This document shows positions 20,725 to 37,184 of a stretch of DNA of 64,000 nt, one piece after another. The position numbers and the translations under genes were made by a program. The stretch comes from Paludibacteraceae bacterium (lineage in GTDB: Bacteria; Bacteroidota; Bacteroidia; Bacteroidales; Paludibacteraceae): the NCBI GenBank assembly GCA_024399965.1, contig JAKSNJ010000001.1, forward strand, positions 62,001 through 126,000. Reading direction: 5' to 3'. The first letter of the stretch is position 1, and each line of letters opens with the position of its first letter. The notes under the pieces are model-generated. The model ran no database searches and was not told the origin of the DNA. It saw only the letters and a program-made list of their open reading frames with translations.

Positions 20725-22122
20725 ATGAAAACCGCTATTTTCTCTACCGCACTGATTGCTGCTATCGTTTTGACCTCGTGCCACAAACCCGAAACCGAAC
20801 CGGCTGCACCTACCGACCCTGAAGGAACGGTGTATTTCACCGAGTTGGATTCTGTCTTTCCCAATCCCGAGAAAGGTTTTCATGTACAATCCTATTTCTC
20901 CAGCCAAGACCTTAGCAAGCGCGCAAGCGCAAAAAGTATGATTACGGAGCGCAATGGCGAGTTTGCCCAAACGCTTTATCTACATTCCTATTACCTTACT
21001 GATTATATCGAGTCAGACATTCCGCAAACGTTCTTAGACCGTATGCAGGACAACTTTGACTCCCTGCGTGCCGGTGGTGCAAAAGCCGTCATACGCCTTT
21101 CTTATAAAGATAATGAAGCACCAGCATATAAACCATGGGACGCTACTCCCGAGTGGGCAAACCGCCACATTGACCAAGTAGCACCCGTTCTCAATAAAAA
21201 TGCCGATGTTATCCTCTGTTTCCAAGCCGGCTTTGTCGGCGTTTGGGGAGAGTGGTACTATACCACCGGCTTCAAAATGAATCCCAAAACGGATGCAGAA
21301 TACCAGCCACGTTGGGATTTGCTCAACCACGAATTAGAGGCATTCCCGCATGACCGCCAAATATGTCTGCGTACACCCGGCTACAAGATGCGTTATCTTC
21401 AGCAAATGGGCTTAGATGTGCTCCCGTTGGACGAATATACGGCGCACAAGGGCGATGCCAAATCGCGTTTAGGTGGACACAATGACTGCTTTATCTCTGA
21501 TCCCAATGACGTGGGCACATACTCTTCAACGGAGGACCGTGACTTCTGGCAGAAAGATACACGCTATACTTTGATGGGTGGTGAGACTTGTAGGAATTGC
21601 AAACAGTCAGCAGGCGATAATGCCATCAAGCAAATGCAGTTGTATCACTGGACCTATATCCACCGTTCGTATGTTTCATCTGTAGTTTGGGGGTGGAAAA
21701 GTTCGGGGCACTTCCCCTATATCGTTCAGCACTTGGGCTATCACCTCGTCATGGAGAAAGCGTATTGCCAAGTCAATGCCAACAACTATTTTGTGGCTAA
21801 TGTCAAGTTGCACAACGATGGTTTTGCTGCTCCGCAAAATGCCCGTAACGTGGAACTGATTTTGGTCAAGGGGGACGAAAAACACGTCTATAAGCAGAAC
21901 ATTGACCCTCGCTTCTGGATACCTGAGAACAAGAGTTTTGAGATTGCTCTGCTGGCAGAGAAAACGCCCGATTTGACGGGCACCTATACGGTCTATCTCA
22001 ATTTGCCGGACCCCTATCCGTCGCTGCATGACGACCCGCGCTATTCTATTCGCATGTACAACAAAGACGTGTGGGAGGAAAGCACCGGCTACAATAAACT
22101 GGGTGAATACACATTTAACTAA
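20725..22122 (+). CDS. DUF4874/DUF4832 lipoprotein (paralogue 1), candidate glycoside hydrolase
   Basis: 465 residues from the ATG that gives a good lipoprotein signal (IAAIVLTSCH, Cys19); upstream GTG/ATG-like codons give none. The N-terminal domain (DUF4874-type) begins FPNPEKGFH at ~46 and includes FQAGFVGVWGEWYY (~166-179). The second part (DUF4832-type) contains GGHNDCF (~250-256) and LMGGET (E287). A C-terminal beta domain follows. Conserved E176 and E287 are 111 residues apart, as for the acid/base and nucleophile of clan GH-A barrels; catalysis is a hypothesis. The gene ends 6 nt before the GH31 gene. It has no C-terminal sorting signature, in line with lipid anchoring. Confidence 0.88.
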   Translation: MKTAIFSTALIAAIVLTSCHKPETEPAAPTDPEGTVYFTELDSVFPNPEKGFHVQSYFSSQDLSKRASAKSMITERNGEFAQTLYLHSYYLTDYIESDIPQTFLDRMQDNFDSLRAGGAKAVIRLSYKDNEAPAYKPWDATPEWANRHIDQVAPVLNKNADVILCFQAGFVGVWGEWYYTTGFKMNPKTDAEYQPRWDLLNHELEAFPHDRQICLRTPGYKMRYLQQMGLDVLPLDEYTAHKGDAKSRLGGHNDCFISDPNDVGTYSSTEDRDFWQKDTRYTLMGGETCRNCKQSAGDNAIKQMQLYHWTYIHRSYVSSVVWGWKSSGHFPYIVQHLGYHLVMEKAYCQVNANNYFVANVKLHNDGFAAPQNARNVELILVKGDEKHVYKQNIDPRFWIPENKSFEIALLAEKTPDLTGTYTVYLNLPDPYPSLHDDPRYSIRMYNKDVWEESTGYNKLGEYTFN

Positions 22123-22128
22123 TTCAAT

Positions 22129-23661
22129 ATGCGTCGCATTTTTTTGATTGCTTTATCTTCGGTATGTGTCTTGACGATGTATGCCGAGCATTGGTGGGGC
22201 TTTGCTGTGGGTGAAGGTCACAACCAGCCCTATACCACGTTCCGTTCGTTTGATATGTCCCGTGAGGACGCCAATAACCAGTTGACGCCACTCCTTATCT
22301 CCGACGAGGGGCGTTATATCTGGACCGATACGGCCGTTACGTTCTCTTTCAAGGACGGTCAACCTGTCTTGCCCAACGGCATTGCTATGCAGCAGGTGAA
22401 AGATGGCACGTTGCGAGGTGCGTACATGGAGGCAATGAATCGCTATTTCTCTCCCTCCGGCTTGATGCCCGATTCCCTCTTCTTTGTGCGTCCGCAGTAT
22501 AATACGTGGATTGAACTCATGTACAATCAAAACCAAGCCGATATTCTCCGTTACGCCCACGCCATCGTGGATAACGGTCTGCCGGCAGGGGTGCTCATGA
22601 TTGACGATAACTGGCAGCGCTACTACGGCAACTTTGATTTCAAGGCAGAGCGTTTCCCCAATCCCAAAGCCATGATGGACGAACTCCATCAACTCGGCTT
22701 TAAGGTCATGGTGTGGGTGTGCCCCTTCGTCAGTGCTGACAGCCCTGAAGGACGTGCCCTCGCAGAAAAGGGCTACCTGCTGAAGGACAAAGACGGCAAT
22801 ACGGCTATTCTCCGTTGGTGGAACGGCGCTTCGGCGTGCTACGACCTCACCAACCCTGCCGCCCTCGCGGACTTTGTGGCTACCTTGCGTCAGGCGCAGG
22901 CCAAATATGGTATAGACGGCTTTAAGTTCGATGCCGGCGATAACAACTGCTACGCCTCCACCGACTTGGCTTCTACTGCTACTACCGTTGAGCATTGCGA
23001 GTCATACGCTCGCCTTGGTCTCAGTTTCCCTGTCAACGAGTTCCGTGCTTGCTGGAAGATGGGCAATCAGCCCCTTGTTCAGCGTTTAGGCGATAAGGAC
23101 TACAGTTGGGACGCTGTGGCTTCCCTCATTCCGCAGATGTGCGTAGCCGGTCTGTTGGGTTACACCTATGCGTGCCCCGACATGATTGGTGGCGGTCAGT
23201 GGACCTCTTTCCTCAATATCGCCGAGGACCAGTTTGATCAGGCACTCATCGTTCGCTCGGCACAGATTCATGCCCTCATGCCGATGATGCAGTTCTCGGT
23301 GGCTCCGTGGCGTATCTTGTCTAAGGAGAACATGGCGATTGTCAAGCAGGCAGCATTGTTGCATACGCAGTTTGCACCGTATATCTACCAATGTGCGCAA
23401 GCCAGCGCACGTACGGGCGAACCCATCGTTCGCAATATGGAGTACCAGTTCCCCCATCAGGGTTTGGCGGACTGCAAGGACCAGTTTATGTTGGGTGATA
23501 AGTACCTGATTGCCCCTGTGGTAGATAATCGCCTTGTGCGCGAGGTGCGTCTGCCCAAAGGCACTTGGCGTGACGAATTGGGCAAGAAATACAAAGGTGG
23601 CAAGACCTATACCATCAATGCTCCTTTGGCCCGTTTGCCGTACTTTGAGAAGATAAAATAA
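22129..23661 (+). CDS. GH31-family glycosidase (MYORG-like subfamily)
   Basis: 510 residues with an N-terminal signal-like segment (FLIALSSVCVLTMYA). The catalytic barrel shows VLMIDDNWQ at ~156-163, KVMVWVCPFVS at ~192-202 and the nucleophile motif GFKFDAGD (Asp268). The later region has CPDMIGGGQW, APWRIL and YIYQCA, and a short C-terminal beta domain ends in PLARLPYFEK. FKFDAG and the overall spacing fit the MYORG-like branch of GH31, whose characterised member prefers alpha-galactosides; other GH31 members act on alpha-glucosides. It sits between two DUF4874/DUF4832 lipoprotein genes with gaps of 6 and 7 nt, so it belongs to unit 1. It is probably periplasmic. Confidence 0.88.
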   Translation: MRRIFLIALSSVCVLTMYAEHWWGFAVGEGHNQPYTTFRSFDMSREDANNQLTPLLISDEGRYIWTDTAVTFSFKDGQPVLPNGIAMQQVKDGTLRGAYMEAMNRYFSPSGLMPDSLFFVRPQYNTWIELMYNQNQADILRYAHAIVDNGLPAGVLMIDDNWQRYYGNFDFKAERFPNPKAMMDELHQLGFKVMVWVCPFVSADSPEGRALAEKGYLLKDKDGNTAILRWWNGASACYDLTNPAALADFVATLRQAQAKYGIDGFKFDAGDNNCYASTDLASTATTVEHCESYARLGLSFPVNEFRACWKMGNQPLVQRLGDKDYSWDAVASLIPQMCVAGLLGYTYACPDMIGGGQWTSFLNIAEDQFDQALIVRSAQIHALMPMMQFSVAPWRILSKENMAIVKQAALLHTQFAPYIYQCAQASARTGEPIVRNMEYQFPHQGLADCKDQFMLGDKYLIAPVVDNRLVREVRLPKGTWRDELGKKYKGGKTYTINAPLARLPYFEKIK

Positions 23662-23668
23662 GTTCTCC

Positions 23669-25078
23669 ATGAGACCTATATACTTGGTTGTCTTGACCTT
23701 AGCGGTGGCTCTTGCGGGCTGCCGCTCGGTGTCTGTAAGTCCCGTATCGACGTGGACCTATCGGCCCTCAGATGTCAATTTTGCCAACCCTGAACGCGGC
23801 TACAAGTATCTGACCTATTTTGAACATGCGCCCTTTGACAACGCTGCCAATGCCACCATGTACCGCCTGATGCGCGAGCAGGATAAACTGACGTTGCATC
23901 AGCATGTCTATTACCTCTCCGATTTCATGGAGGGTGACATCTCGCAGGAGTACCTTGATGCCCTTGATGCCAATATGCAGGTACTGCGCGAGTCGGGCTG
24001 CAAGTGTATCTTGCGCTTTGCCTATAAACATGAGATGGAAGAGGAAGATAAACCCTTTGACCCGTCGCCCGATTGGGTCAATCGCCATATAGAGCAGTTG
24101 CAACCCTATCTGATTAAGAACGAGGACGTTATCTTCTGCTTGGAGGCAGGTTTTATAGGCGTTTGGGGAGAGTGGGGATATACCTCCGGTTACACCCAAT
24201 TGGACTGGCCTTACCGTTGCGAACAATTGGAAAATCGTTGGGAGACGCTGGACCACCTCTTGGCTGCTACGCCTGTTTCGCGACAGATTTGTCTGCGCAC
24301 GCCGTTTTATAAAAAGTGCTATTTGTCCTATCACGGCCAGCCGGACATACCTGTTTCTGAATCCACGGCGCACCGGCCCACCGCTTTGGGGCGTTTGGCT
24401 GCCCACAATGACTGTTTCCTGTCCGCTGACGATGATTTTGGCACCTATTTGAATGATGACGACCGTGAGTTTTGGAAGCAGGACACGCGTTTCACCGTCA
24501 TGGGAGGCGAGATTTGCATGAATTGCGAATACTCCGACGGTGACCGTGCCGTACAGACGATGGAGGACTATCACTACACCTTCCTCAACGACGGAACGTG
24601 GAACGATATTCGCGACAAGTGGGAAGCGTCCGGGCACTGGGAGGAAATCTGCCGTCGCATGGGCTATCGCTTGGTGCTGGACGAGACATCGTTTAAGGAG
24701 GGCAAACCTGAGGGCGATTGGGTTGTGAATGTTACCCTGCATAACGAGGGCTTTGCTGCGCCGATGAATCCCCGTGCCGTTGAATTGGTGCTGGTGCAAG
24801 GAGCAGATACACTCGTTTTTCCACAAAATAACTTTTATCCCTATATGGCTGACCGTCAAACGGTTGACCCGCGTTTTTGGCAGCCGGGTGAACCGATTTA
24901 TTTGCGGCTGACGGCATCGTTGCCGTCCTATGTGAAGGGCGAGTATATTGTTTATCTCAACTTGCCGGACCCCTGTCCCTCGTTGCACGACAACCCCAGT
25001 TTTTCTATCCGCATTGCCAACAAAAACATCTGGAACGCCAATGCCGGCTATAACCGCCTCGGCACCGTCACGTTCTAA
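23669..25078 (+). CDS. DUF4874/DUF4832 lipoprotein (paralogue 2), candidate glycoside hydrolase
   Basis: 469 residues with a lipoprotein signal (LAVALAGCRS, Cys18). Family motifs: FANPERGYK (~38-46), CKCILRFAYKHE (~111-122), CLEAGFIGVWGEWGY with E168, LAAHNDCF (~243-250) and VMGGEICMNC with E281. The two Glu are 113 apart. It is closest to paralogue 1: both share the MGGE-x-C-x-N-C pattern and the ending GYNRLG/GYNKLG plus a short strand. It is the last gene of unit 1. After its stop comes a 280-bp region with repeats and the unit 2 promoter. It lacks the C-terminal signature, as does the other lipoprotein paralogue. Confidence 0.88.
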   Translation: MRPIYLVVLTLAVALAGCRSVSVSPVSTWTYRPSDVNFANPERGYKYLTYFEHAPFDNAANATMYRLMREQDKLTLHQHVYYLSDFMEGDISQEYLDALDANMQVLRESGCKCILRFAYKHEMEEEDKPFDPSPDWVNRHIEQLQPYLIKNEDVIFCLEAGFIGVWGEWGYTSGYTQLDWPYRCEQLENRWETLDHLLAATPVSRQICLRTPFYKKCYLSYHGQPDIPVSESTAHRPTALGRLAAHNDCFLSADDDFGTYLNDDDREFWKQDTRFTVMGGEICMNCEYSDGDRAVQTMEDYHYTFLNDGTWNDIRDKWEASGHWEEICRRMGYRLVLDETSFKEGKPEGDWVVNVTLHNEGFAAPMNPRAVELVLVQGADTLVFPQNNFYPYMADRQTVDPRFWQPGEPIYLRLTASLPSYVKGEYIVYLNLPDPCPSLHDNPSFSIRIANKNIWNANAGYNRLGTVTF

Positions 25079-25086
25079 CTCCTCCT

Positions 25087-25130
25087 CCCTTCCTCACACG
25101 GGTCTTTGCCGACGGCGAACCGACGGCGAA
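25087..25130 (+). repeat. composite block with two 11-bp units, copy B (unit 2 promoter region)
   Basis: CCCTTCCTCACACGGGTCTT leads into two tandem 11-bp units CCGACGGCGAA (25109-25119, 25120-25130). It is a near copy of the block at 13375-13417 and also relates to the three-unit array at 37416-37448. Confidence 0.75.
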
Positions 25131-25161
25131 TGCTCTCATGGATAACCTTAGCGCCTTTGCC

Positions 25162-25358: not shown

Positions 25359-26420
25359 ATGAAAAAGATTTTCTTTTTTGCAAGTGCAATGGTAGCTGCA
25401 TTGGCTATGAATGCACAAACCATCGTTATTGATGGTAACAACTCCGAGTGGGCAAATGTTCCCATGATGACTGAACCGGGTGAGTATCCTGTATTGAAAT
25501 CCGTTGTGGCACAACAGGGTGTTACTTTGGTTGATGGTACTATGTTCAACTATATGGTTGAGCAGAAAGACAACTGGAGTGCTGATTATACCGGTGGCTC
25601 TAAGGGCTGCAATATCTATGTTGAGAATGCCGGTGGTACCAATTTCAAGGACTGGAATGTATTCTATTATACCGATGAACCCAATACATGGGATAACGCT
25701 TCTTCCTTCAGCGGCAAAGTGTTGGAGGGCTCTATCAAGACCGCTAACTTAACAGTATCCAAGACCGCTCCTTTCGGCTTTGTTTTTGCTGCTGATTGGG
25801 GGAATGGTGGTTTGATTCCTAATACGCCCGATAATTTGGGTTGGAAATGGGATCAGAAGTACTATCACGCTCTTACGGCTAAGCCCTATTCCTATGTCAA
25901 TTTAAACGGTACGCTGGCTGTGGCTGATGCTTATGCACGCTTCCAATTCCTTACCCCCGGTGCTGTGGCTGATTTCGATATCTGCAAAAGTTCTGCTAAT
26001 GATACCGCTGCTTGGGTGGCTTGGCCTGTTGAACTCGTTACTCCCGGTACTTATACAATCACGATTAATGGTGACTTTACGGAGACCAATACCGGCATTC
26101 GGTTCTTCTTGGTTGACGTTGCTACCAATGCTGTTGTGGCTACTATTGACAACGGTGAATGGGGCACATGGGCTCCTGCCAGTGGTTTCGAGCACAGCAA
26201 GTGGGATTTGAGCAAGGTTCCTGCAGGCAAGTATATGCTCAAGATGAAGAGTTACATCGCTTGGTCCACTATCAAGGTTAGTTCGGTTACTCTCTACAAT
26301 CCCGAAGCTCCTACCGGCTTTAATCCGGCTGCTACTGTAGCTGCTCCTGCCAAGATGATTAAGAATGGTCGCTTCATGATTAACAACAACGGCAAGTACA
26401 TCAATGCTATGGGTTTCTAA
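25359..26420 (+). CDS. secreted protein of unknown function with C-terminal signature
   Basis: 353 residues with a signal peptide (FFFASAMVAALAMNAQ). The mature start TIVIDGNNSEWANVPMM resembles the opening strand of CBM9/DOMON-like sugar-binding domains. A second beta-rich part (~215-320) contains a TPGTYTITINGDFTE sandwich-like motif. The end, KMIKNGRFMINNNGKYINAMGF in function-neutral terms, is the shared C-terminal signature (key residues K, G, I, N-N-G-K-Y, N-A, M-G-F). It is the first gene of unit 2 and is followed by a hairpin at 26435-26457, suggesting it is made in excess of the genes after it. No family is recognised. Confidence 0.75.
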   Translation: MKKIFFFASAMVAALAMNAQTIVIDGNNSEWANVPMMTEPGEYPVLKSVVAQQGVTLVDGTMFNYMVEQKDNWSADYTGGSKGCNIYVENAGGTNFKDWNVFYYTDEPNTWDNASSFSGKVLEGSIKTANLTVSKTAPFGFVFAADWGNGGLIPNTPDNLGWKWDQKYYHALTAKPYSYVNLNGTLAVADAYARFQFLTPGAVADFDICKSSANDTAAWVAWPVELVTPGTYTITINGDFTETNTGIRFFLVDVATNAVVATIDNGEWGTWAPASGFEHSKWDLSKVPAGKYMLKMKSYIAWSTIKVSSVTLYNPEAPTGFNPAATVAAPAKMIKNGRFMINNNGKYINAMGF

Positions 26421-26492: not shown

Positions 26493-28499
26493 ATGAAAAA
26501 GACTTTTGTATTGGTTTTGTTGGCAGTCGCCAATTTCGCTATGGCTTCCACGGTTAATTACACCGTAGATGACGACACGTGGTTTCGCAATCCTGAACGT
26601 GGCTGGTACCACCAGTCTGCATGTCACCCTCAAGGCAACGGAAGGGGTGGGGGACTTGGTAGTTGGAACAAATACGAAATAGACGAAAGTCGTTCCCTCT
26701 TGCTCCGTATTTACTATATGGAATACTACAACAACGGCAGAGCCATCACCGAATCCGACCTCAATATGTTTGCTTCCGACCTTGCCCAAGCGCGTCAAAA
26801 CGGTATTAAACTGATTCTCCGGTTCGCCTACGGCGACAGTGGCTACAAAGATGATAATAACTGGTCCTTTACCGAGCCGACCAAGGCGCAGATGATGGCG
26901 CACATGGACCAAATCAAACCTATTCTTGCCAAAAACGCCGATGTCATTGCTTGCATACAGGCCGGATTTGCAGGCATTTGGGGCGAGTGGTACTACACAT
27001 CTACCTTTGGCAAAGATTGGTCTAAAAGCAACGCCGTAAATGACCGTAACGACCTAATCAATAAACTGTTGGAGATGACCCCTGCCGACCGCTCGCTGCA
27101 GTTGCGCACTGTTCACTACATCACCGAGTATATGGGTAAAGGCATCCAAGATTATTCCTCTCCACTCACTGATAAAACCGCGTTCTCCGGCTCTGCCCAG
27201 TCCCGACTGGGGCATCACAACGATGCTATCTGCGCAGATGCGTACTGCTGGGGCACTTTCTACTACGATGATGAGTTTGCTTACCTTGCCAACCTCAGTC
27301 AGTATGTGCCTATAGGTGGCGAATCGGCAGGTGGTGATTGGAACTATTACAACGGCCCCAAGGCCTATGCTTTCTTTGAGAAATACCACTACGACTATAT
27401 CAACCGTGACTATCATTCAGGTGTTATCGATTCATGGTTTAACGACAGCAAGGACGGCAAGACTTATTTCGACCATATCACTTGCCGTCTCGGTTACCGT
27501 TATGCCCTTGTCAGTGGTACCTATGCCGATAAAGTTGCCTCGGGGGACAAGTTGGCAGTTACGCTTAAAATCAAGAACGGCGGATTTTCTGCTCTCTACA
27601 ACAAGCGCACCGCCTATATCGTGCTCAAAAACGGCAGCAAGAGTTACAAACTGGCTCTCGCTTCTGACCCGCGTTTGTGGAAAGCAGGTCAAACGACCAC
27701 AGTGAGCGAGTCCCTGACCGTTCCTGCCAATGCCACTGCCGGCAAATACGACCTCTATCTGTGGCTGCCAGATGAATACAAGTCCCTCCAAGGCGATGCT
27801 CGCTACTCTGTCCGCATGGCGAACAAAGACATGACTTGGACTGATGGCATGAACAAGTTGAATGCCTCCGTTACCATCACCAATGAAGGCGGTGGCGGAC
27901 AAGAGGAGCAGGGTGGTGGAGATGAAGACCCCACGCACGACTATGCCATATCGGTTGACTTTGTGGAGTTGGCAGCGCAATATGCGCCGTATAAGGACCA
28001 CAGCACCAATGGCATACAGACCGAATTGGACGAGTATAATTACTCCGTTTCTTCCGCAACCGATGGCAAGGTTTATTGGGACAACCAAGATGGTCCTGAC
28101 GGCGGTTTTGGCATAGACAATACCAACGGTACCCAACACCCCTTCTCGTTTTGGGTGAAAGCGAATTGCAAAGTCACAATTACCGTGGGTACGCTCAACG
28201 GTGACGGCACCCCCAATACGGCTACGCTTACCATGAACGACGGTAGCCCCGTCACGATTAACCAAAACACGACTACCGAATACACCACTACCGAACCTAC
28301 CTTGTTCGTGCTGACTATGCTACCGGGCAGCAAAGACTGGTCGTGGAACCGTATTCAGCAGATTACGATTACTCCCCTGCCCGCTACACTGTTGCCGGCC
28401 GCTCGCGAAACGGCTCCGGCGGTAGGCAAGTATTTAGACGGAAAGGGACAGCTGCATATTGTCCGCGAGGGACATCACTATAACGCATTTGGATTATAA
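26493..28499 (+). CDS. secreted DUF4874/DUF4832 protein (paralogue 3) with C-terminal beta domain
   Basis: 668 residues with a signal peptide (FVLVLLAVANFAMA). Family core: WFRNPERGWYH (~30-40), IKLILRFAYG (~105-114), CIQAGFAGIWGEWYYTS with E165, LGHHNDA (~239-245) and YVPIGGES with E277 (112 apart). A C-terminal subdomain of the core ends near 460 (ARYSVRMANKDM). A Gly/Glu-rich linker (EGGGGQEEQGGGDEDP) then leads to a ~150-residue beta-sandwich-like domain (KVTITVGTLNGDGTPNTATL). The last ~22 residues are the shared signature (QLHIVREG..YNAFGL). The extra domain may bind carbohydrate (inference). The next gene starts 12 nt on. Confidence 0.88.
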   Translation: MKKTFVLVLLAVANFAMASTVNYTVDDDTWFRNPERGWYHQSACHPQGNGRGGGLGSWNKYEIDESRSLLLRIYYMEYYNNGRAITESDLNMFASDLAQARQNGIKLILRFAYGDSGYKDDNNWSFTEPTKAQMMAHMDQIKPILAKNADVIACIQAGFAGIWGEWYYTSTFGKDWSKSNAVNDRNDLINKLLEMTPADRSLQLRTVHYITEYMGKGIQDYSSPLTDKTAFSGSAQSRLGHHNDAICADAYCWGTFYYDDEFAYLANLSQYVPIGGESAGGDWNYYNGPKAYAFFEKYHYDYINRDYHSGVIDSWFNDSKDGKTYFDHITCRLGYRYALVSGTYADKVASGDKLAVTLKIKNGGFSALYNKRTAYIVLKNGSKSYKLALASDPRLWKAGQTTTVSESLTVPANATAGKYDLYLWLPDEYKSLQGDARYSVRMANKDMTWTDGMNKLNASVTITNEGGGGQEEQGGGDEDPTHDYAISVDFVELAAQYAPYKDHSTNGIQTELDEYNYSVSSATDGKVYWDNQDGPDGGFGIDNTNGTQHPFSFWVKANCKVTITVGTLNGDGTPNTATLTMNDGSPVTINQNTTTEYTTTEPTLFVLTMLPGSKDWSWNRIQQITITPLPATLLPAARETAPAVGKYLDGKGQLHIVREGHHYNAFGL

Positions 28500-28511: not shown

Positions 28512-30053
28512 ATGAAAAAAACTTTGATTGCGCTGGTTGCAACGCTGCTTTGCACCACCTTGAATGCTGCCACCAAAACCTACGTGGCTGACGACAACAC
28601 GATGATTCTGAATCCCGAACGCGGTTTTTACCACTACTCCGACATTAAATTAAAAGGTGACGGCACAGGCGGTTTGACCAACAACTCAGGCGGTATCACG
28701 TCCTGCCGCCTCGACAAGACCACCCTGCTGTTCCGTTATTTCTATCTGAATAAGTACAACGACGGTTCTGCCATCACCGACAAGGACCTTGCCCTGATTG
28801 CCAACGACTTTAAGGTGGCACGCGAAAACGGTATCAAAATCATTGTGCGTTTCTCCTACGGTTCACAGGGGTATAAAAGCGATAATAACTGGTCCTTCAC
28901 TGAGCCGAGCAAGGAAGGCATGTTGGCACACATGGCGCAACTCAAGCCCGTTTTGGCTGCCAATGCCGATGTCATCGCTTGCGTACAGGCCGGCTTTGTA
29001 GGTATCTGGGGTGAGTGGTATTTCTCCTCTACTTTTGGCAAGGATTGGTCGCTGCCGAATAAAACAGATGCCAAAGCTGCCCGCAACGACATCATCAACG
29101 GTCTATTGGATATGACCCCTGTTGACCGCTGTGTGCAACTGCGTACCGTTCACTACATCACTGAATATATCGGCAATGGTTCACGCGACTATACCACCCA
29201 ACTGGACGACCAAACGGCCTTCAACGGTAGCGCACAGGCCCGTATAGCCCACCACAATGATGCTTTCTGTGCCAACCAAGAGAACGATGGTACGTACTAT
29301 GAATACGCCAAAGAGCGTCCTTATCTTGCCAACCTTGGTCAGTATGTGCCCCTCGGCGGTGAGAACAACGGCGGCAGTTCATCGTATAACAACGGTGCAA
29401 AAGTTGTGGCCGATATGGAACTGCTGCACTACGACTTCCTCAATACGGAGTACGATGCCAGTGTGATTAGCACGTGGCGTGACAATAAACCTGCCGGTAG
29501 CAAATTGTCCTACTACGAGATTATGCAGCGCCGCCTCGGCTATCGCCTCCAACTCAAGACGTGGTCCATGGCTGAACTGCTTGACCCGCAATATCCGCTG
29601 CATGTGTGGTTCTCGATGTACAATTCCGGCTTCTCTAACCTCTACAACAAGCGTATTGCTTACCTCGTCCTCAAGAACGACAAACACACCTACCGACTGC
29701 CCCTCAAATCCGACCCGCGTCTGTGGAAGAGCGGACAGACCACCGATGTACACGAGGTCTTGACATTGCCGGACGACGCTGTCGAAGGTGTATATAAGGT
29801 GTACCTGTATATGCCGGACGTATATGAGTCGATTGCCGCCAATCCTGCCTATGCTGTCCGCTTGGCAAACAAAGACATGCCGTGGACAGAAGACGGTATG
29901 AACGACCTCGGTATCACTTTTGAGCTCCGCAAAGGCGTCCCTTTTGACGCGTTGGACGAGGCCAAAGTGGCTGCCTTGTCCACCAAATACATCAAAGACA
30001 ATAAACTCTACATTCGTCGCCACGGCAAAATATATAACGCCCTCGGCATGTAA
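28512..30053 (+). CDS. secreted DUF4874/DUF4832 protein (paralogue 4)
   Basis: 513 residues with a signal peptide (LIALVATLLCTTLNAA). Motifs: ILNPERGFYHYSD (~32-44), IKIIVRFSYGSQGYKSDNN (~108-126), CVQAGFVGIWGEWYFSS with E168, IAHHNDAFC (~245-253) and YVPLGGENNGG with E284 (116 apart). It is clearly closest to paralogue 3: both share YGxxGYKxDNNWSFTEP and QLRTVHYITEY. There is no extra beta domain; the core runs directly into the C-terminal signature (KLYIRRHGKIYNALGM). Paralogues 3 and 4 probably arose by tandem duplication followed by gain or loss of the accessory domain. Confidence 0.88.
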   Translation: MKKTLIALVATLLCTTLNAATKTYVADDNTMILNPERGFYHYSDIKLKGDGTGGLTNNSGGITSCRLDKTTLLFRYFYLNKYNDGSAITDKDLALIANDFKVARENGIKIIVRFSYGSQGYKSDNNWSFTEPSKEGMLAHMAQLKPVLAANADVIACVQAGFVGIWGEWYFSSTFGKDWSLPNKTDAKAARNDIINGLLDMTPVDRCVQLRTVHYITEYIGNGSRDYTTQLDDQTAFNGSAQARIAHHNDAFCANQENDGTYYEYAKERPYLANLGQYVPLGGENNGGSSSYNNGAKVVADMELLHYDFLNTEYDASVISTWRDNKPAGSKLSYYEIMQRRLGYRLQLKTWSMAELLDPQYPLHVWFSMYNSGFSNLYNKRIAYLVLKNDKHTYRLPLKSDPRLWKSGQTTDVHEVLTLPDDAVEGVYKVYLYMPDVYESIAANPAYAVRLANKDMPWTEDGMNDLGITFELRKGVPFDALDEAKVAALSTKYIKDNKLYIRRHGKIYNALGM

Positions 30054-30088
30054 AACACCTATCACCTATCACCTATCAACTATCAATT
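30054..30088 (+). repeat. 7-bp tandem array (CACCTAT/CAACTAT)
   Basis: The 35-bp gap between paralogues 4 and 5 is filled by about five 7-bp units (CACCTAT x2-3, CAACTAT, CAATTAT). The last unit runs into the ATG of the next gene. Confidence 0.75.
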
Positions 30089-32089
30089 ATGATAAAACGG
30101 TATTTCTTTATTGTTTTAATGTGTATTGCCGTCATTGGCGGACATGCCAAAACGGTTACCTACACGGCTGACAATACAACGGATTTCTGTAACCCTGAGC
30201 GTGGCTTTTACGACCATGTAGAGTGGACCATTAAAAGTGATCAAGCTACCACGAATCTTTCTTCTGGTTACTTGACCGGTGCTCGAAATAATAATCGCAC
30301 ACTTATTTTGCGACTGTACTATTTGGATAATTATCGTACCAAAGATATCCCGCAAAATATCCTTACGCAGATAGGAAACGATATGGCATTGCTTCGTCAA
30401 TATGGCTGCAAAGCTATTCTGCGTTTTGCCTACACCGCTTCTTCCACAAGTGGAGACGGTACACTGGAGTGGTGGGAAAAACACCTTGACCAGCTCAAGC
30501 CCATTCTTGCTGCCAATGCCGATGTTATCTATGTGGTACAAGCTGGATTCTTGGGTGAATGGGGCGAGTGGTACTATTCGTCTTATGGCAAAGGAACAGC
30601 TATTCCATCCTCAGTTAAAACATCCTTGTTGAATAAACTCTTGGAGTGTGTCCCCACTTCGCGCTATGTGCAGGTGCGTACACCTAAATTCAAAAAAGAC
30701 TACACCGGCTCTTCTTCTGCTATGACCGCTTCGGATGCCTACAAAAATACTGCTAAAGGGCGTCTCGGACACCACAACGATGCTTTCTTAAAAGACGAAA
30801 CAAATTCGGGAACTTATACCAATCGTACTACGGATATGGCATATATAGCCGCAGAATGCCTTTATGTACCTAACGGAGGTGAAACCAATATGGAAAGTGG
30901 GAAAACGGCTTATGACAAGTGGGCAAAAGGTACAATTGCTGAGGCCGAAATGGCACAATTACACTATTCTTACTTAAATGCCGGTTATTCGGAATTTGTT
31001 ACTGACCAATGGCGAGAAGAAGGAGCTTTTGCACGTATGTCACGCAATCTGGGTTACCGCTACCAACTCACCACTGCCACCTTGCCCGAAACGGGTGCTG
31101 CCGGCAAGAAAATAACGGTGCAACTCAACATCAAGAACGTGGGCTACGCGCCTCTCTACAACGAGCGTCACGCCTACCTTGTCTTCAAATCGTCCTCCAA
31201 GACCTACACCGTGCAACTCGCTTCCGACCCACGTACTTGGCAGCCCAATGGTGCTACCACTGCCATCAGCGAAACCGTCACCTTACCATCTACTATGGCG
31301 GCAGGGACTTATACGATGTATCTGTGGTTACCCGACGCTGCTGCCTCCATTGCCGACAAGGCCGACTTTGCCGTGCGCTTTGCGAACAGCAATACATGGG
31401 ACAGCACTACGGGTTATAATAAACTCAACCACACTATCACGGTCACGGCAGACGGTGGTGAACAGGGCGGTGACGATGATGACGACCCGACACCCACTAC
31501 ACCGTGTGAGTACACGGTTGACCTATCTACCGCGCAAACGTGGTCAGGACAGTCTGAAGGTGCATCGGTGAACTTTTCCACCACGAACAAAGTGCTGACT
31601 GCCAACTATTCCACTGCCGGTTCATGGCTCGCTACAGGATTATATTTCCCTATCAATCAGTCGAATATAGAGGAAATCAGAATCTCCTTCAAGGGTGCCG
31701 TCACTGCCGATTCGTGGACTGCCTTTGAGGTATGTCTCACCGATGGAACGAACATCTACCGCGATAATACGACGGACTTCTCCCTTCACGGAAGCAGTGA
31801 GTGGCAAACGGCGTCGGTTGTACCCAATAGTATTTTGTGGACCGAGCCCGAGCAAGCGGCTTCCATCAGCGGTGTCAAGATGACGGGCATTATCTTAATC
31901 ATCAATCCGGCGGGCACCGTCTCGGCACAAATGCAGGTAAAGGACTTGACTCTCAAGCTCAAGTGTACCTCCACCGATTCTCCTTATCACCCCCTTACTG
32001 AGGGGGACGGGGGGTGTCTCAAGATTATCAAAGATAATCGTCTCTATATTCTCCGCAATGGCAAAATGTATAACGCCCTCGGCATCTAA
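30089..32089 (+). CDS. secreted DUF4874/DUF4832 protein (paralogue 5) with C-terminal beta domain
   Basis: 666 residues with a signal peptide (YFFIVLMCIAVIGGHA). Core motifs: FCNPERGFYDH (~33-43), CKAILRFAYTASS, VVQAGFLGEWGEWYYSS with catalytic-candidate E160, LGHHNDAF (~226-233) and VPNGGETNM with E265 (105 apart). A Gly/Asp linker (DGGEQGGDDDDDPTPTTP) precedes a ~150-residue beta-sandwich (YTVDLSTAQTW...) of carbohydrate-binding type by appearance. Just before the C-terminal signature (RLYILRNGKMYNALGI) the sequence SPYHPLTEGDGGCLK is encoded by a GC-rich palindromic repeat (31989-32018) that recurs in two later genes. Confidence 0.88.
   Translation: MIKRYFFIVLMCIAVIGGHAKTVTYTADNTTDFCNPERGFYDHVEWTIKSDQATTNLSSGYLTGARNNNRTLILRLYYLDNYRTKDIPQNILTQIGNDMALLRQYGCKAILRFAYTASSTSGDGTLEWWEKHLDQLKPILAANADVIYVVQAGFLGEWGEWYYSSYGKGTAIPSSVKTSLLNKLLECVPTSRYVQVRTPKFKKDYTGSSSAMTASDAYKNTAKGRLGHHNDAFLKDETNSGTYTNRTTDMAYIAAECLYVPNGGETNMESGKTAYDKWAKGTIAEAEMAQLHYSYLNAGYSEFVTDQWREEGAFARMSRNLGYRYQLTTATLPETGAAGKKITVQLNIKNVGYAPLYNERHAYLVFKSSSKTYTVQLASDPRTWQPNGATTAISETVTLPSTMAAGTYTMYLWLPDAAASIADKADFAVRFANSNTWDSTTGYNKLNHTITVTADGGEQGGDDDDDPTPTTPCEYTVDLSTAQTWSGQSEGASVNFSTTNKVLTANYSTAGSWLATGLYFPINQSNIEEIRISFKGAVTADSWTAFEVCLTDGTNIYRDNTTDFSLHGSSEWQTASVVPNSILWTEPEQAASISGVKMTGIILIINPAGTVSAQMQVKDLTLKLKCTSTDSPYHPLTEGDGGCLKIIKDNRLYILRNGKMYNALGI
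31989..32018 (+). repeat. GC-rich palindromic element, in-frame copy 1
   Basis: CCCCCTTACTGAGGGGG followed by ACGGGGGGTGT. It is translated (PLTEGDGGC) just upstream of the C-terminal signature of paralogue 5. Close copies are at 35628-35658 and 37084-37112 in the same position of two other genes. Confidence 0.8.
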
Positions 32090-32096: not shown

Positions 32097-32194
32097 GTGC
32101 ATTGTCAACTATCAACTGTCAACTATCAACTATCAATTATCAACTATCAACTATCAACTATCAACCATCAACTATCAATTATTAATTACTAACT
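32097..32194 (+). repeat. long 7-bp tandem array, GTGCATT family (14 units)
   Basis: It begins GTGCATT, GTCAACT, ATCAACT and continues with ATCAACT/GTCAACT/ATCAATT variants to ATTAATT and ACTAACT, about 98 bp in all. It fills almost the whole gap between paralogue 5 and the beta-helix/phosphatase gene, leaving ~9 nt before the ATG. Confidence 0.85.
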
Positions 32195-32203: not shown

Positions 32204-35200
32204 ATGAAAAAACACTTTTTAACACTCGTTCTGTCGCTCATTAGTGTAGCGATTTTTGCTGCCACTATCAATGTATCTCCCGGTAGTGGTAAAATTAAGT
32301 CGGCGGTTGGCAACGCCAAATCAGGTGATGTAATCGTCCTTGCCGATGGTGAATACACGGAGCCGTCTTATTCTGACGTTAAGTATTCTATGACCATTAA
32401 GGCAGCAGAAGGTGCCAAACCGATTATCAAAATGGGGTACGGCTACTTTTTGCGCGTTCGCAACGATGGTACCGAACTCACTCTCAACGGACTCACCATT
32501 GATGGTAACGGCACTGCCAATGCACGTTCTATCCGCAACTACGGTTCCGATGGTGCTATCACTGCCAACCAGAAATATCTGGTCTATAACTGTACCTTCC
32601 AAAACATGGACCGCGCTTTTTACTTGGCTTCGAATACGTCCAACTGCACCCTCACCGTTGATGGCTGTAACTTCACCGATGTTACGCGCGCTATTTATAT
32701 AGGTTCATATTTGGATGCAGGTGATGATTATTATTCCACTACCCGTACCGACATCAATGTGCCTGATTTGACGGTAACCAATTCGATGTTCGTGCGCAAT
32801 ATGCGCAGTTTGTCTGTAGCCGGTGCTCGCCGTACTACCAAGAACGTCCTCGTTCAGAACAATACCTTTGTTTCTTGCGGTAAATATGATGCCACCGATC
32901 CCAAAAAAGTTATCAACGAGCGCACCCTCTATTTCTCCGCCGTAGATGGCGAGGACGAGAGTTATACGCCCATTAACTGCACCATCGACCACTGCACTTT
33001 CTATGCGTGCAACAACACCCGTACTGTCTATTGCCCGGCTTACGACGGCACTATCATCTCCAACTGTATCTGCTACTTCACCGAAGCCGTTGCTGATGGC
33101 TATGCGTATGCTGTCTATGGGGCTAATTCCATCGTTAAGAACTCCATCGCCTTTGGCGCTCCTATCAAGACCAGTTCAGAGGCCACTACCGATAAGTGTT
33201 CCTTCCAAAATCCCCTCTTTGTTGATGTGGAGAAAGGCAATTTCCAACTCTTTAAGAACTCGCCTGCTGTCGCCACTGCTTCCGACGGCACCAATATGGG
33301 TGACCCGCGTTGGGGCGTAAGCGAAAAAGACGCTGACATCAGCAAAATACCTTTGGAGGAACGTATCGTCAAGACGCCTTATTCGATGTCGCCTACCACT
33401 TCTTCCGTCAAGGTCATTTGGCAGCAGAGTGACGATACACAACTCGGTTACGTCAGATACGGCACCAGCAAGGCCAACCTCAACCTGTCCGCTTCTTCTT
33501 CCGAAGGTAAGTACGTTGAGGGTGAGGGCTATGTTCACGTTGTTACGCTCACCGGTTTGCAGCCCTTCACTACCTATTATTACCAAGTGGGTGATGGCAA
33601 ACAGTGGTATGACCAAGTGAACAGCACCAAGACTGCTCCCAATGCCGGCACCGCTTTCCGTATCTTCACCATTTCCGATATACACGTCAATTCGCGCAGT
33701 AACTGGTCCAATATGCAGGATTTCATTTGCACGCTTGGCTGCGACCTCGCTATGTGCAACGGCGACTTTGTCAACGATGGTGCCGGACGCGATTGGAACT
33801 TGGCTTATTTCCAACCCGGTAAACCGTTCCTCAGCCAAACACCTATGATGTCTGCTGCCGGCAACCACGAGACCGACGACCCCTACACCTACCGCTGGTC
33901 CACGTTCTATGACTACTTCTGGCAATTCAGCCACGGTGACTCCGAAGACCCCATCAAAGACCCTCGTGGGGAGGGCTATTTCGCCTATGACTACGGCAAT
34001 GCACGTATCATCGCTGTCAATGTCAATGGCGGACCTGCTGCACCTGACTTTGGACCTAACAGCAAACAGTATAAGTGGCTCGAAAATGAACTCAAAAACG
34101 CTACCGCACCGTGGATTCTCATCTTTGGTCACGTCGGTCTTACCACTTCCGGCTCCCACGGCGAATGGCCACCTGAATACCGTAACGAGTGGCGCGCTCT
34201 CTTCGAGAAATATGTCAAACTGGGCAAACACATCATCTATTTCTGTGGTGATGACCACTCTTTCGAACATGCCTTCAAGGACGGCGTTCACTACGTGCGC
34301 CCTGCTTGTGGCCGTAACTCCAACTATGCCCAGAAAAAGTACCTCGACGATGCCAAATATACCCTCTTGTACAAGCAGATTTCCTGCTATTCCACGCTCG
34401 ATATGTCGGCTGATGCCAAGACGCTCACACTCACTGCACGCGACTCCGCATCGAACGTCTTCTATACCTACCAATTCAAGCAGGAGGGCGAACTCATTGC
34501 ACCTAATTTTGAGTTCACCGTGCCGAATGCTAACGTAGAGGCCAAGGACTCCATTATGCTCTCGTGGAACTTGCTCGACCCACAGAATGATGCCAAGGTC
34601 GCTATCTATGCTTCCACCACAGCCAACCTCACACAGGCACAACTCCCCAAATCACCGATTTACCAATTTACCGGTACCTCCACTCCCCGTTTCTTCTGGC
34701 ACACGCGCCAAGTGGACCCCAAGGGCACCTATTACCTCTATATCACCGTTACTTCCGGTGGTAAGACCTATTTCTTTGCTAGCCCTTATACCGTCACCTT
34801 GCTTGAGGACACCGAAGCACCGGCTGCTCCGGCTAACTTAGGGGGCTACATATCCGATAACCACTATCAACTCTTCTGGACCAATCCCACGGCTCTGCAA
34901 CCGCGTGAACGCCAACTCACCGACTTCTCCGATGGCGTAGCGTGTATGTCCGAGAATAGCGAAGCCAACACCTCCTCTGTCCTCTCTGCTGACAATGGTG
35001 CGCTTAAGGTCGAGTTCAATGTGTCGGTTGCTTGGGCACAAACGGCTGCCGAATATACCTTTACTCCTGCTGCTGACTGCCACGAGACGCCTATTCTGCA
35101 TTTCCGCCTCAAAGGCGACGGCTCCAACACCGCACTGCGTATCATCGCCAAAAACGATTTCTTCGGACACGAAGATTGGTGGGGTGGGGACGAGTACCTT

Positions 35201-35728
35201 AATCTCGCCTCTACCGAATGGCGCGAATATACCATTGACCTTTCCAAACTGCCTATGTTTGACTGGTACACCAATTCGGCTACTGCCAATGCGTGCGATG
35301 CGCTCAAGGCCATTTCTTTTGCCGTCTCACCGGCATCACCCGTGTCCGGCACGTTCTACCTTGACGACCTCTACCTCACCGGTATGGTCAATCCTGCTCC
35401 TGACTTTGACAAGGTCATCATTCGCCGTTCCACAACGGGCTATCCTACCTCCATCACCGCTGGCGACGCTGTTTATCAGGGCAAGGAAGAGACCTGTCTC
35501 GACGCTACCTCGGATATCTCCACCGTGTATTACTACTCGGCTTTTGCGCTCGATGACCGCGGTAATGTATCTGCTCCTGCTCAATGGCTCAGCACCAACC
35601 TGACCGACGCCCTTGATAGCCCCTATCTCCCCCTTACTGAGGGGGTCGGAGGGTGTCCCAAATTTATAAAAAACAATCATCTTTACATTCGTCACAATGA
35701 AAAAACGTACACTATCCTCGGCCACTAA
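32204..35728 (+). CDS. secreted parallel beta-helix / purple-acid-phosphatase-like fusion with C-terminal signature
   Basis: 1174 residues with a signal peptide (LTLVLSLISVAIFAA). Residues ~22-365 form a right-handed beta-helix of the polysaccharide-lyase/DUF5123 kind (LTLNGLTIDGNG, TVDGCNFTDV, TIDHCTFYAC). Residues ~398-475 are an Fn3-like N-domain of purple acid phosphatases (YVRYGTS, LQPFTTYYYQVGD). Residues ~485-750 are a metallophosphoesterase: SDIH (D492, H494), GDFVND (D521), GNHE (N554, H555), FGHVG (H643) and CGDDHSFEHA where GHxH is usual. A beta-sandwich region (~765-1120) follows, then a GC-palindrome-encoded PLTEGVGGC and the signature (HLYIRHNEKTYTILGH). It could remove phosphate from a glycan substrate (inference). 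The 3' end overlaps the next gene by 32 nt. Confidence 0.85.
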   Translation: MKKHFLTLVLSLISVAIFAATINVSPGSGKIKSAVGNAKSGDVIVLADGEYTEPSYSDVKYSMTIKAAEGAKPIIKMGYGYFLRVRNDGTELTLNGLTIDGNGTANARSIRNYGSDGAITANQKYLVYNCTFQNMDRAFYLASNTSNCTLTVDGCNFTDVTRAIYIGSYLDAGDDYYSTTRTDINVPDLTVTNSMFVRNMRSLSVAGARRTTKNVLVQNNTFVSCGKYDATDPKKVINERTLYFSAVDGEDESYTPINCTIDHCTFYACNNTRTVYCPAYDGTIISNCICYFTEAVADGYAYAVYGANSIVKNSIAFGAPIKTSSEATTDKCSFQNPLFVDVEKGNFQLFKNSPAVATASDGTNMGDPRWGVSEKDADISKIPLEERIVKTPYSMSPTTSSVKVIWQQSDDTQLGYVRYGTSKANLNLSASSSEGKYVEGEGYVHVVTLTGLQPFTTYYYQVGDGKQWYDQVNSTKTAPNAGTAFRIFTISDIHVNSRSNWSNMQDFICTLGCDLAMCNGDFVNDGAGRDWNLAYFQPGKPFLSQTPMMSAAGNHETDDPYTYRWSTFYDYFWQFSHGDSEDPIKDPRGEGYFAYDYGNARIIAVNVNGGPAAPDFGPNSKQYKWLENELKNATAPWILIFGHVGLTTSGSHGEWPPEYRNEWRALFEKYVKLGKHIIYFCGDDHSFEHAFKDGVHYVRPACGRNSNYAQKKYLDDAKYTLLYKQISCYSTLDMSADAKTLTLTARDSASNVFYTYQFKQEGELIAPNFEFTVPNANVEAKDSIMLSWNLLDPQNDAKVAIYASTTANLTQAQLPKSPIYQFTGTSTPRFFWHTRQVDPKGTYYLYITVTSGGKTYFFASPYTVTLLEDTEAPAAPANLGGYISDNHYQLFWTNPTALQPRERQLTDFSDGVACMSENSEANTSSVLSADNGALKVEFNVSVAWAQTAAEYTFTPAADCHETPILHFRLKGDGSNTALRIIAKNDFFGHEDWWGGDEYLNLASTEWREYTIDLSKLPMFDWYTNSATANACDALKAISFAVSPASPVSGTFYLDDLYLTGMVNPAPDFDKVIIRRSTTGYPTSITAGDAVYQGKEETCLDATSDISTVYYYSAFALDDRGNVSAPAQWLSTNLTDALDSPYLPLTEGVGGCPKFIKNNHLYIRHNEKTYTILGH
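35628..35658 (+). repeat. GC-rich palindromic element, in-frame copy 2
   Basis: CCCCCTTACTGAGGGGG followed by TCGGAGGGTGT, translated as PLTEGVGGC in the beta-helix/phosphatase protein just before its C-terminal signature. Confidence 0.8.
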
Positions 35729-37184
35729 ACTCCTTTTCCTCGCCCTGCTCTCACCGTGCATTGTGCATGGTCAATTCTCAACTATCAACTCTCAACTATC
35801 AACTATCAACCGCACCGTTGACCAAGTTCAACCCCTCACCGGCTTAGTTCTGTGGAACTACCTCGCCGAGGAGGAAAACGCCTCTTATGGCTCTTGCTTT
35901 GGCTTGGAATATACCTATTGCAAGTATTCCGACGTCGTCACCGGCAAGAAGGACGGACAACTACAGTACGATTGGTCTTCGCTCGAAGCAACCCTTAATG
36001 CCGTCAAGAAACGGGGACATCAGTCTATCTTGCGCTTTTGGTTCGAATACCCGGGTGAGCAGCCCGATGGCGCTACCGGTGGCAAAACTGCCGTACCCGA
36101 CTATATCAAAAAGATGGACGGTTACTCCGAAACGTCCTATACCGGCGGAGAGGGTAAATGCTACTATGCCGACTGGTCACATGCCGAATTGCAATGGTTC
36201 GCCAAGCAGTTCTATACCGACTTTGCTGCCAAGTACGATTCCGACTCGCGTATCGCACTCATGGAAGTCGGCTTTGGACACTGGGGTGAGTATCATATCA
36301 GCGATGGACCATCTCTCAAACTGGGCAAGAACTTCCCCTCTAAGGACTATCAGGAGCAGTTCCTCACTCACGTGGCGCAGCAGTTCGTCAACATGCCGTG
36401 GTGCATTAGCGTGGACGCTGCCGAAACAGAACAATCCGCTGTCACCCAACGCCAGTCCCTCAAAGCGCTCCACTTTGGTGTCTTTGATGACTCTTTTATG
36501 TGCAACGGACACGACCTTGGCAGCAAAACAGGCGAAAAGGGCTACAATGAGGAAAACTGGAACGCTATTGGCAATACACGCTGGAAAACAGCACCTTGCG
36601 GTGGTGAAATCAGCTACTATAAATCCGCTGACCAACACAATTTCCTCAATCCTGACGGCATGTACAACATGACGTGGGAGGGCGAATGCGCTCATTATCA
36701 TATCTCCTTTATGATTTGCAACGATGCCCTCGAGGGCAAATATGCCACCACCACGCGCTTCAAACAGGGCTCTATGGCGTGTGGCTACCATTTCCAGCTC
36801 ACTGCTTGTCAAACCGATGGCAACAAGACGCTTGTCACGGTCACCAATACGGGTGTTGCTCCTATCTACAAGGACGCTTATTTCGCTATTGGCTCTGTTC
36901 GTGCTACGGAGTCGCTTAAGGGCTTGCTGCCGAATGCCACGGCGACTTTCACTATTCCTGCCGGATTGAGCAAGGCGGACGATTTGCATATTGTCAGCGA
37001 CTTCATCTATTCCACCCAGCAGATTCAGTTCGATGCCAATGTCACGGTCACTGTTGTCCCCACCGCCCTTGATTCCCCGATTCATCCCCTTATTGAGGGG
37101 GCCGGGGGGTGTTCCAAGATTATCAAAGCCAATCGCCTCTACATTCTCCGCCACGGCAAAATGTATAACGCCCTCGGCATATAA
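35697..37184 (+). CDS. secreted divergent DUF4874/DUF4832-like protein (paralogue 6)
   Basis: 495 residues. The ATG lies inside the end of the previous gene (32-nt overlap) but gives a good signal peptide (KLLFLALLSPCIVHGQ), so I accept it. Directly after the signal, a 7-bp array (35756-35811) is translated as a 7-residue repeat (QFSTINS, QLSTINR). The core is diverged from the other five copies: HQSILRFWFEYPG, LMEVGFGHWGEYHIS with E198, FDDSFMC where others have HNDxF, and APCGGEISYY with E304 (106 apart). A beta domain follows, then PLIEGAGGC encoded by a GC palindrome, then the signature (RLYILRHGKMYNALGI). Both Glu survive the divergence, which supports a catalytic role. Confidence 0.8.
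   Translation: MKKRTLSSATKLLFLALLSPCIVHGQFSTINSQLSTINRTVDQVQPLTGLVLWNYLAEEENASYGSCFGLEYTYCKYSDVVTGKKDGQLQYDWSSLEATLNAVKKRGHQSILRFWFEYPGEQPDGATGGKTAVPDYIKKMDGYSETSYTGGEGKCYYADWSHAELQWFAKQFYTDFAAKYDSDSRIALMEVGFGHWGEYHISDGPSLKLGKNFPSKDYQEQFLTHVAQQFVNMPWCISVDAAETEQSAVTQRQSLKALHFGVFDDSFMCNGHDLGSKTGEKGYNEENWNAIGNTRWKTAPCGGEISYYKSADQHNFLNPDGMYNMTWEGECAHYHISFMICNDALEGKYATTTRFKQGSMACGYHFQLTACQTDGNKTLVTVTNTGVAPIYKDAYFAIGSVRATESLKGLLPNATATFTIPAGLSKADDLHIVSDFIYSTQQIQFDANVTVTVVPTALDSPIHPLIEGAGGCSKIIKANRLYILRHGKMYNALGI
35756..35811 (+). repeat. 7-bp tandem array, GTGCATT family, translated
   Basis: Eight units: GTGCATT, GTGCATG, GTCAATT, CTCAACT, ATCAACT, CTCAACT, ATCAACT, ATCAACC. It lies in the coding region just after the signal peptide of paralogue 6, producing a 7-residue amino-acid period. 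Confidence 0.85.
37084..37112 (+). repeat. GC-rich palindromic element, in-frame copy 3
   Basis: ATCCCCTTATTGAGGGGGCC followed by GGGGGGTGTT, translated as PLIEGAGGC in paralogue 6 just before its C-terminal signature. Confidence 0.8.

Follow-up and report, generated by a model that had tools for sequence, protein, structure and literature searches.

Six DUF4874/DUF4832 paralogues in a Paludibacteraceae SusCD locus as candidate glycoside hydrolases related to clan GH-A

The window, i.e. the whole stretch of DNA analysed here, comprises 64 kb on contig C1 (JAKSNJ010000001.1) of a Paludibacteraceae genome of 1.66 Mb that is 83% complete. Positions 13531-37184 carry, all on the forward strand and in this order, a GH109 homologue, SusC, SusD, a lipoprotein-like gene, D1, a GH31 enzyme, D2, a gene without family, D3, D4, D5, a metallophosphoesterase, and D6. 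A SusC/SusD pair and glycan-acting enzymes encoded on the same strand, together with a similar order in a relative, identify this region as a polysaccharide utilisation locus. The subject of this report are the six paralogues D1 to D6, of which D1 to D5 carry two domains of unknown function (DUF4874 and DUF4832) and D6 is a remote homologue. Comparison of their sequences suggests, with a probability of about 0.8, that they are glycoside hydrolases related to clan GH-A which use a conserved pair of glutamates. The genes and the codons of the two glutamates are:

20725-22122, forward strand: D1, DUF4874-DUF4832 protein (Pfam DUF4832 1.5e-46, DUF4874 2.2e-35, scanned from 20686); Glu codons 21250-21252 (E176) and 21583-21585 (E287), same strand
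23669-25078, forward strand: D2, DUF4874-DUF4832 protein (Pfam 2.4e-49, 6.8e-37); Glu codons 24170-24172 (E168) and 24509-24511 (E281), same strand
26493-28499, forward strand: D3, DUF4874-DUF4832 protein with a C-terminal extension of about 200 residues and a sorting-type tail (Pfam 1.4e-56, 4.4e-37); Glu codons 26985-26987 (E165) and 27321-27323 (E277), same strand
28512-30053, forward strand: D4, DUF4874-DUF4832 protein with sorting-type tail (Pfam 9e-50, 7.9e-39); Glu codons 29013-29015 (E168) and 29361-29363 (E284), same strand
30089-32089, forward strand: D5, DUF4874-DUF4832 protein with extension and tail (Pfam 4.8e-58, 1.3e-45); Glu codons 30566-30568 (E160) and 30881-30883 (E265), same strand
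35697-37184, forward strand: D6, remote homologue with tail (DUF4832 below the Pfam cut-off; hhalign to the family 97.4%); Glu codons 36288-36290 (E198) and 36606-36608 (E304), same strand

All six open reading frames (ORFs) begin with ATG at these coordinates and are free of internal stops. A preliminary description of this DNA had assigned to every copy a Glu in a W-G-E motif and a second one in a G-G-E motif, 105-116 residues apart; both motifs, their residue numbers and their spacing hold exactly in all six. The H-N-D-type residues described between them are present in five copies, while D6 has F-D-D instead; the last Asp of this motif (D231 in D5 numbering) is invariant in all six. Likewise, the assignment of six copies to DUF4874/DUF4832 stands for D1 to D5, which exceed both Pfam cut-offs, but not for D6, which stays below them (DUF4832 26.1 versus 29.2 bits; DUF4874 15.6 versus 30.1 bits, E 0.013). 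Profile comparison by hhalign aligns the D6-type proteins with the D1-D5 family at 97.4% (E 1.5e-11), with both Glu motifs matched, and with the DUF4832-only proteins described below at 99.0%; these two results rule out that D6 is unrelated to the family. An NCBIfam search of the six copies returned nothing near a cut-off.

The alignment of the six copies (pairwise identity 16-52%) contains 27 invariant columns, among them two of Glu and two of Asp, and the only invariant Glu columns are those of W-G-E and G-G-E. Two or more invariant Glu columns arose in 0 of 2000 within-row shuffles (331 ungapped columns). Conservation was further counted in homologues, taken as ORFs of at least 250 amino acids with a blastp match at E<=1e-8 to a window copy, repeated copies being dropped. 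The two glutamates are each kept in 57/58 rows of a first set and in 85/86 rows of an enlarged one, and the Asp of H-N-D in 56/58 and 84/86; no other acidic column of the 86-row set is as well conserved as these three. The 85/86 conservation and the shuffle test together rule out a chance reading of the pair. D6-type proteins keep both glutamates in 6/6 cases, their first motif being W-[GSA]-E rather than W-G-E. The sole row without the pair (L019:616-2166, genome G257) lacks both glutamates and the Asp as well, and is by its sequence a candidate for a natural pseudoenzyme. The source genome holds a seventh homologue of the D6 type (G000:C10:22504-23724), 54% identical to D6. The stretch around this second D6-type gene (L212, C10:13500-30416) also contains GH36-like, PfkB and EamA homologues, which in some relatives form part of the D1 locus.

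In the TIM barrels of clan GH-A the acid/base residue at the end of strand 4 and the nucleophile at the end of strand 7 are both Glu. The connection of the window family (profile of 54 rows) to this clan runs through a DUF4832-only subfamily, represented by a profile of five proteins from Subdoligranulum (record OY725881.1), Enterobacter, E. coli, Photobacterium and Leptolinea. Of eight plasmid records with such genes, five entered the alignment, a group of four near-identical Enterobacter rows being represented by one. The records annotate the Enterobacter, E. coli and Photobacterium proteins as DUF4832 and the Leptolinea protein as beta-galactosidase. Both glutamates and the Asp are kept in all five, and hhalign joins the window family to this subfamily at 99.6% (E 1.8e-23) over 387 columns, with both Glu regions aligned. 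The five proteins in turn all match PF02449 (Glyco_hydro_42) at E<=10, the best at 4.2e-7, and share an N-terminal barrel motif with GH42 (W..LEP.eGkY.f..lD). Searched against the PDB, the DUF4832-only profile retrieves 78 sequences at E<=10. The top match is xylanase 1r86 (4.5e-7), and the first beta-galactosidase is 4ucf (1.2e-6); the best 60 of the 78 are named as xylanase, beta-galactosidase, 'glycoside hydrolase' or designed construct. These xylanases and beta-galactosidases we take to belong to clan GH-A families. Against GH42 the same profile reaches 97.8% (P 6.8e-13), against GH39 10.6%, and against eight controls from outside clan GH-A at most 1.8%. The D6-type profile provides a second, weaker connection: it matches the GH39 beta-xylosidase 6uqj in the PDB (E 0.0017) and aligns with GH39 at 59.9%, with nine other comparisons at or below 3.4%, and E198 of D6 falls opposite the Glu of the GH39 N-E-P motif. 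Pooling of window family, D6-type and DUF4832-only proteins gives 49.5% for GH42, 50.4% for GH39 and at most 5.5% for eight others. Because the chain leads from the window family via the DUF4832-only subfamily to GH42 while controls stay low, kinship with clan GH-A appears well supported, and a GH-A-related barrel is predicted with high but not complete confidence.

Several results weigh against this reading. A PDB search with the 54-row window-family profile has no match at E<=10, and the profile reaches only 0.9% against GH42 and 0.8% against GH39, below a SusD decoy at 5.9%. Pooled with the D6-type proteins it attains 13.2% against GH39, with decoys up to 8.3%. In phmmer searches of the PDB, D5 yields just two chance matches at 0.83 and the bridging Subdoligranulum protein chance matches only, and global hhalign gave nothing. 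PF02449 is matched at E<=10 by none of the six window copies, 10 family members and 6 D6-type proteins. The GH39 match of the D6-type is weak and confined to the N-terminal half, and the D1-D5 profile does not share it. Kinship with the clan, as put forward in the preliminary description, is thus carried by the profile chain through relatives and, weakly but directly, by the D6-type, and not by the D1-D5 profile itself. As to the catalytic positions, a forced alignment of the DUF4832-only proteins puts the first Glu off the N-E Glu of GH42 but on the N-E-P Glu of GH39, and neither alignment locates the second Glu; profile alignments are unreliable past strand 4. For the first Glu, the positional claim thus has support from GH39, where it falls opposite the acid/base (D6-type, 59.9%), but not from GH42, and for the second Glu from neither. 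Finally, clan GH-A enzymes usually, though not strictly, carry Asn directly before the acid/base Glu. All six window copies have Gly at this place and differ from GH42 in lacking the N-E motif, which among the five DUF4832-only proteins occurs in L197 alone.

The preliminary description of a glycosidase family not usually named as such holds only in part: a DUF4832 protein is already in print as a predicted TIM-barrel hydrolase. According to the accessible part of a 2025 report (PMC12345266), the DUF4832 protein SIR_1591 of Streptococcus intermedius acts as a glycoside hydrolase, is predicted to fold as a TIM barrel, and breaks up aggregates of a Pel-like polymer rich in GalNAc; it is the only DUF4832 protein for which the literature searched gave an activity. 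In the same part of the report, the assay is one of aggregate dispersal and not of product analysis, and deletion of SIR_1591 had no phenotype; both points count against our reading. SIR_1591 is set beside the window copies by its description as DUF4832, not by sequence; as far as the accessible text goes, no DUF4874 is named, and a single gene lies beside an exopolysaccharide synthesis cluster, unlike the expanded SusCD locus of the window. DUF4832 genes adjoining pel clusters appear in the portion seen of PMC7112168, and a rumen metaproteome lists, in the section available, a cellulosomal DUF4874-DUF4832-dockerin protein (PMC7480376). Four papers of the literature searched mention DUF4832 or DUF4874. 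This literature contained no GH-A sequence link, no catalytic pair for the DUF4874/DUF4832 form, no co-loss of the glutamates and no six-copy locus, although a recent CAZy family number is possible; a search for PF16116 or PF16173 found no mention.

Based on this dataset, we hypothesize a catalytic domain of the GH-A TIM-barrel type, followed by a domain of the beta-sandwich type. The Glu of W-G-E, after strand 4, would serve as general acid/base, and the Glu of G-G-E, after strand 7, as nucleophile, or as base if the enzymes invert. The invariant Asp of H-N-D or F-D-D would follow strand 6 and lie in the active site. A retaining mechanism is assumed here and seems probable.

The neighbouring genes named in the preliminary description (GH109, SusC, SusD, GH31) were identified correctly. 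The remaining genes of the locus are:

13531-14976, forward strand: GH109 homologue (Pfam PF21252 3.6e-38; PDB 6t2b 7e-79, 2ixa 1.6e-59)
15046-18048, forward strand: SusC (TIGR04056, 748.1 bits versus a cut-off of 368.25)
18080-19771, forward strand: SusD (Pfam PF07980, PF14322)
19817-20602, forward strand: lipoprotein-like gene without family (no Pfam match at E<=0.001)
22129-23661, forward strand: GH31 enzyme (Pfam PF01055, PF21365; PDB 8j53, E 9.7e-194)
25359-26420, forward strand: protein without Pfam family (no match at E<=0.001), tail like D3-D6
32204-35728, forward strand: purple-acid-phosphatase-like metallophosphoesterase (Pfam), tail as in D3-D6
C-terminal tails: 26298-26417, 28377-28496, 29931-30050, 31967-32086, 35606-35725, 37062-37181, 42116-42235

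Inspection by eye suggests lipoprotein-type signals in D1 (L-T-S-C) and D2 (L-A-G-C). A common C-terminal tail (consensus K-x-I-x-N-G-x-L-Y-I-x-x-x-G-K-x-Y-N-A-L-G) is found in seven proteins of the locus, namely D3 to D6, the metallophosphoesterase and two others. A model of this tail has 68 matches in the source genome at E<=0.1, including the seven window tails from which it was built, and Pfam Por_Secre_tail has two above-cut-off matches elsewhere in the genome. The tail may represent a type IX sorting signal, possibly in a form of this lineage. Since D1 and D2 resemble lipoproteins and D3 to D6 bear the tail, the six proteins would be exported and act, close to the SusCD pair, outside the cell or on its envelope. 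Compared with the tail DNA of D5, that of the metallophosphoesterase shows 71% identity and that of D6 84%.

A contig scan found one relative, L007 (JAKSNK010000001.1), in a Paludibacteraceae metagenome-assembled genome (MAG) from horse faeces. It has D1, GH31, D2, the gene without family, D3, D4, D5 and the metallophosphoesterase in the same order (48, 83, 79, 49, 59, 72, 74 and 70% identity), with one extra gene between the last two. Upstream follow counterparts of GH109, SusC, SusD and the lipoprotein (86, 72, 59 and 51%). A D6 counterpart is absent after its metallophosphoesterase; D6-type genes are found on this contig next to a HAD gene located upstream of GH109, and at other places. Homologues of the lipoprotein-like gene adjoin SusCD in some further relatives (L078, L079, L088, L089 and L214). 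A 54-row tree without D6 divides D1 to D5 into three supported groups (D1+D2, D3+D4, D5) and so rules out one recent tandem array. It pairs D2, D4 and D5 each with the L007 gene at the corresponding position and does not do so for D1 and D3, the L007 gene at the place of D3 grouping with the D4 pair; orthology of D1 and D3 with L007 is hence by position only. As the paralogues fall into several lineages (D1+D2, D3+D4, D5, D6), their targets are probably different linkages within one glycan.

In samples of larger groups, DUF4874 occurs in 12/295 genomes of the order, 58/200 of the family and 16/395 of the phylum, the source genome included. The five matches in the source genome are the highest number, other genomes reaching at most 1 (order), 4 (family) and 3 (phylum). 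For DUF4832 the genome of L007 has seven matches, six of them above cut-off, and the source genome six, five above cut-off. Most of the relatives' stretches examined contain one or two genes of the family, in contrast to five to six in the window and five in the syntenic L007. Proteins with both domains were met in Bacteroidota and in one Actinomycetota record; homologues with DUF4832, and DUF4874 at best at 5.5e-4, occur in records of Bacillota, Chloroflexota and Pseudomonadota. No DUF4832-only type was found in viral contigs, and phage records gave no match. One stretch (L086:7549-18297) encodes a frame of 3583 residues in which a pectate-lyase-like domain, DUF4874 and DUF4832 are combined with several Listeria-Bacteroides repeats.

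Gene context provides the indications about the substrate. The nearest solved chains to the window GH31 are named GH31 alpha-galactosidase (8j53). Homologues of GH31, GH36 or GH109 (E<=1e-20) occur in 17 of 44 family neighbourhoods (GH36 in 12, GH31 in 9, GH109 in 4) versus 0 of 20 control stretches. The 44 comprise 24 + 20, several from the same genomes, and include the D6-type stretch L212 without DUF4874; the controls were hand-picked on the same contigs and are not random, and the GH36 query was taken from one of the test loci. Five viral-contig neighbourhoods outside the 44 (L063-L067) had no GH31, GH36 or GH109 homologue. Several relatives (e.g. L079, L089, L214, L216) combine a D1-like gene with SusCD, GH31, a GH36/melibiase-like enzyme and an amidohydrolase. 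The window resembles SusCD loci with GH31 alpha-galactosidase and GH36 or GH109 homologues. The best solved matches of the GH36-like enzyme are 8x1b (E 5.2e-58), given as the Flavonifractor GH36 galactosaminidase in the available part of PMC11762096, and 9awt, named as an A-type blood galactosaminidase. The DUF4832-only genes of the Enterobacter and E. coli plasmids (L198, L200) lie at the end of glycosyltransferase clusters beside galE, a setting that recalls the pel context reported in streptococci. The Leptolinea gene likewise adjoins glycosyltransferases, and the Photobacterium gene does not. In view of the 17/44 versus 0/20 contrast, a galacto-configured substrate is our best guess, at about even odds, and the target glycan would most likely be rich in galactose, galactosamine or GalNAc.

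A different specificity of the same hydrolases, for instance for beta-glucans or plant glycans within a polyspecific family, is compatible with the proposed GH-A relationship and keeps a real, if smaller, chance. Twenty-seven of the 44 neighbourhoods lack a GH31, GH36 or GH109 homologue at E<=1e-20, and the PDB matches listed for the DUF4832-only profile are mostly xylanases and beta-galactosidases. Bacteroides finegoldii (NZ_OY725947.1, L073:11821-15981) encodes a DUF4874-DUF4832-GH3 fusion beside a GH16 gene, and in Prevotella sp. oral taxon 299 (L072) a GH85, a SusC-like, a D5-like and a GH31 homologue (55%) share one stretch; both settings speak against a purely galacto-configured family. 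On the other hand, GH109 and GH31 homologues accompany the genes both in the window and in L007, its syntenic relative. The L073 fusion is annotated by its GH3 part alone, and the L072 replicon, of 1.77 Mb, is listed as a plasmid.

A bolder version of the galacto-configured reading, which we consider rather improbable, holds that a GH-A-derived family has turned to alpha-linked polymers of galactosamine, GalNAc or galactose, with Gly replacing the usual Asn and an Asp as third invariant residue, and that the six copies form a battery for one alpha-galacto-configured glycan. If true, a GH-A-type Glu pair would cut alpha-D-galactosaminide bonds, which is stereochemically unexpected. Similarly unlikely, in our estimate, are inverting, beta-amylase-like hydrolases, in which a TIM barrel with a Glu pair would act on alpha linkages by single displacement. 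The acid motif without the GH-A Asn would suit this idea, GH14 beta-amylases having a G-E acid motif, as would the resemblance of GH31, GH109 and the relatives' GH36-like enzyme to alpha-galactosidases and alpha-galactosaminidases. The predicted DUF4832 barrel also resembles beta-amylases and beta-galactosidases in structure, according to the accessible part of PMC12345266. However, no GH14 sequence match was seen: GH14 is absent from the Pfam scans of the window copies, family members, D6-type and DUF4832-only proteins, and from the PDB matches listed (the best 60 of 78 for the DUF4832-only profile, and those of the D6-type), in which GH42, GH10 and GH39 are seen. A search with GH14 PF01373 gave short weak matches only, in 6/247 genomes.

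Glycan-binding or transglycosylating barrels without hydrolytic function seem very unlikely. SusCD loci often include binding proteins, and the pseudoenzyme-like L019 shows that members without the catalytic residues exist, but all six window copies keep both glutamates and the Asp, and activity is reported for a DUF4832 protein in the part of PMC12345266 available. That the proteins form no barrel but a new fold with two structural glutamates, as the missing solved relatives of the window-family profile might suggest, is scarcely credible given the profile chain to GH-A families with its low controls.

If the GH-A-related reading is correct, two entries of unknown function would become one glycosidase family open to experiment, its candidate catalytic residues already named, and the window would offer, at a single locus, six paralogues for assay on the same substrate. 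It would also serve as a warning for annotation: where a locus seems poor in enzymes, the principal ones that cut its glycan may be hidden behind DUF names.

Some further features of the region were recorded. A 159-residue part of the D3 extension had a best PDB match of only E 0.38, and the N-terminus of the metallophosphoesterase resembles DUF4957 and DUF5123, each below cut-off. Seven-base tandem repeats (units CACCTAT, TCAACTA and TCAACTC) occur at 30056-30085, 32105-32182 and 35771-35810; the last lies within the D6 frame and encodes an odd S-T-I-N-S-Q-L-S-T-I-N stretch near the N-terminus. Downstream, the ORF at 37289-42238 (1649 residues), in a stretch of lower GC (0.42-0.44), has a List_Bact_rpt domain and a sorting-type tail, and the one at 42839-45646 (935 residues) combines a glucosamine-6-phosphate-deaminase-like part with PIG-L and an APH-type kinase domain.

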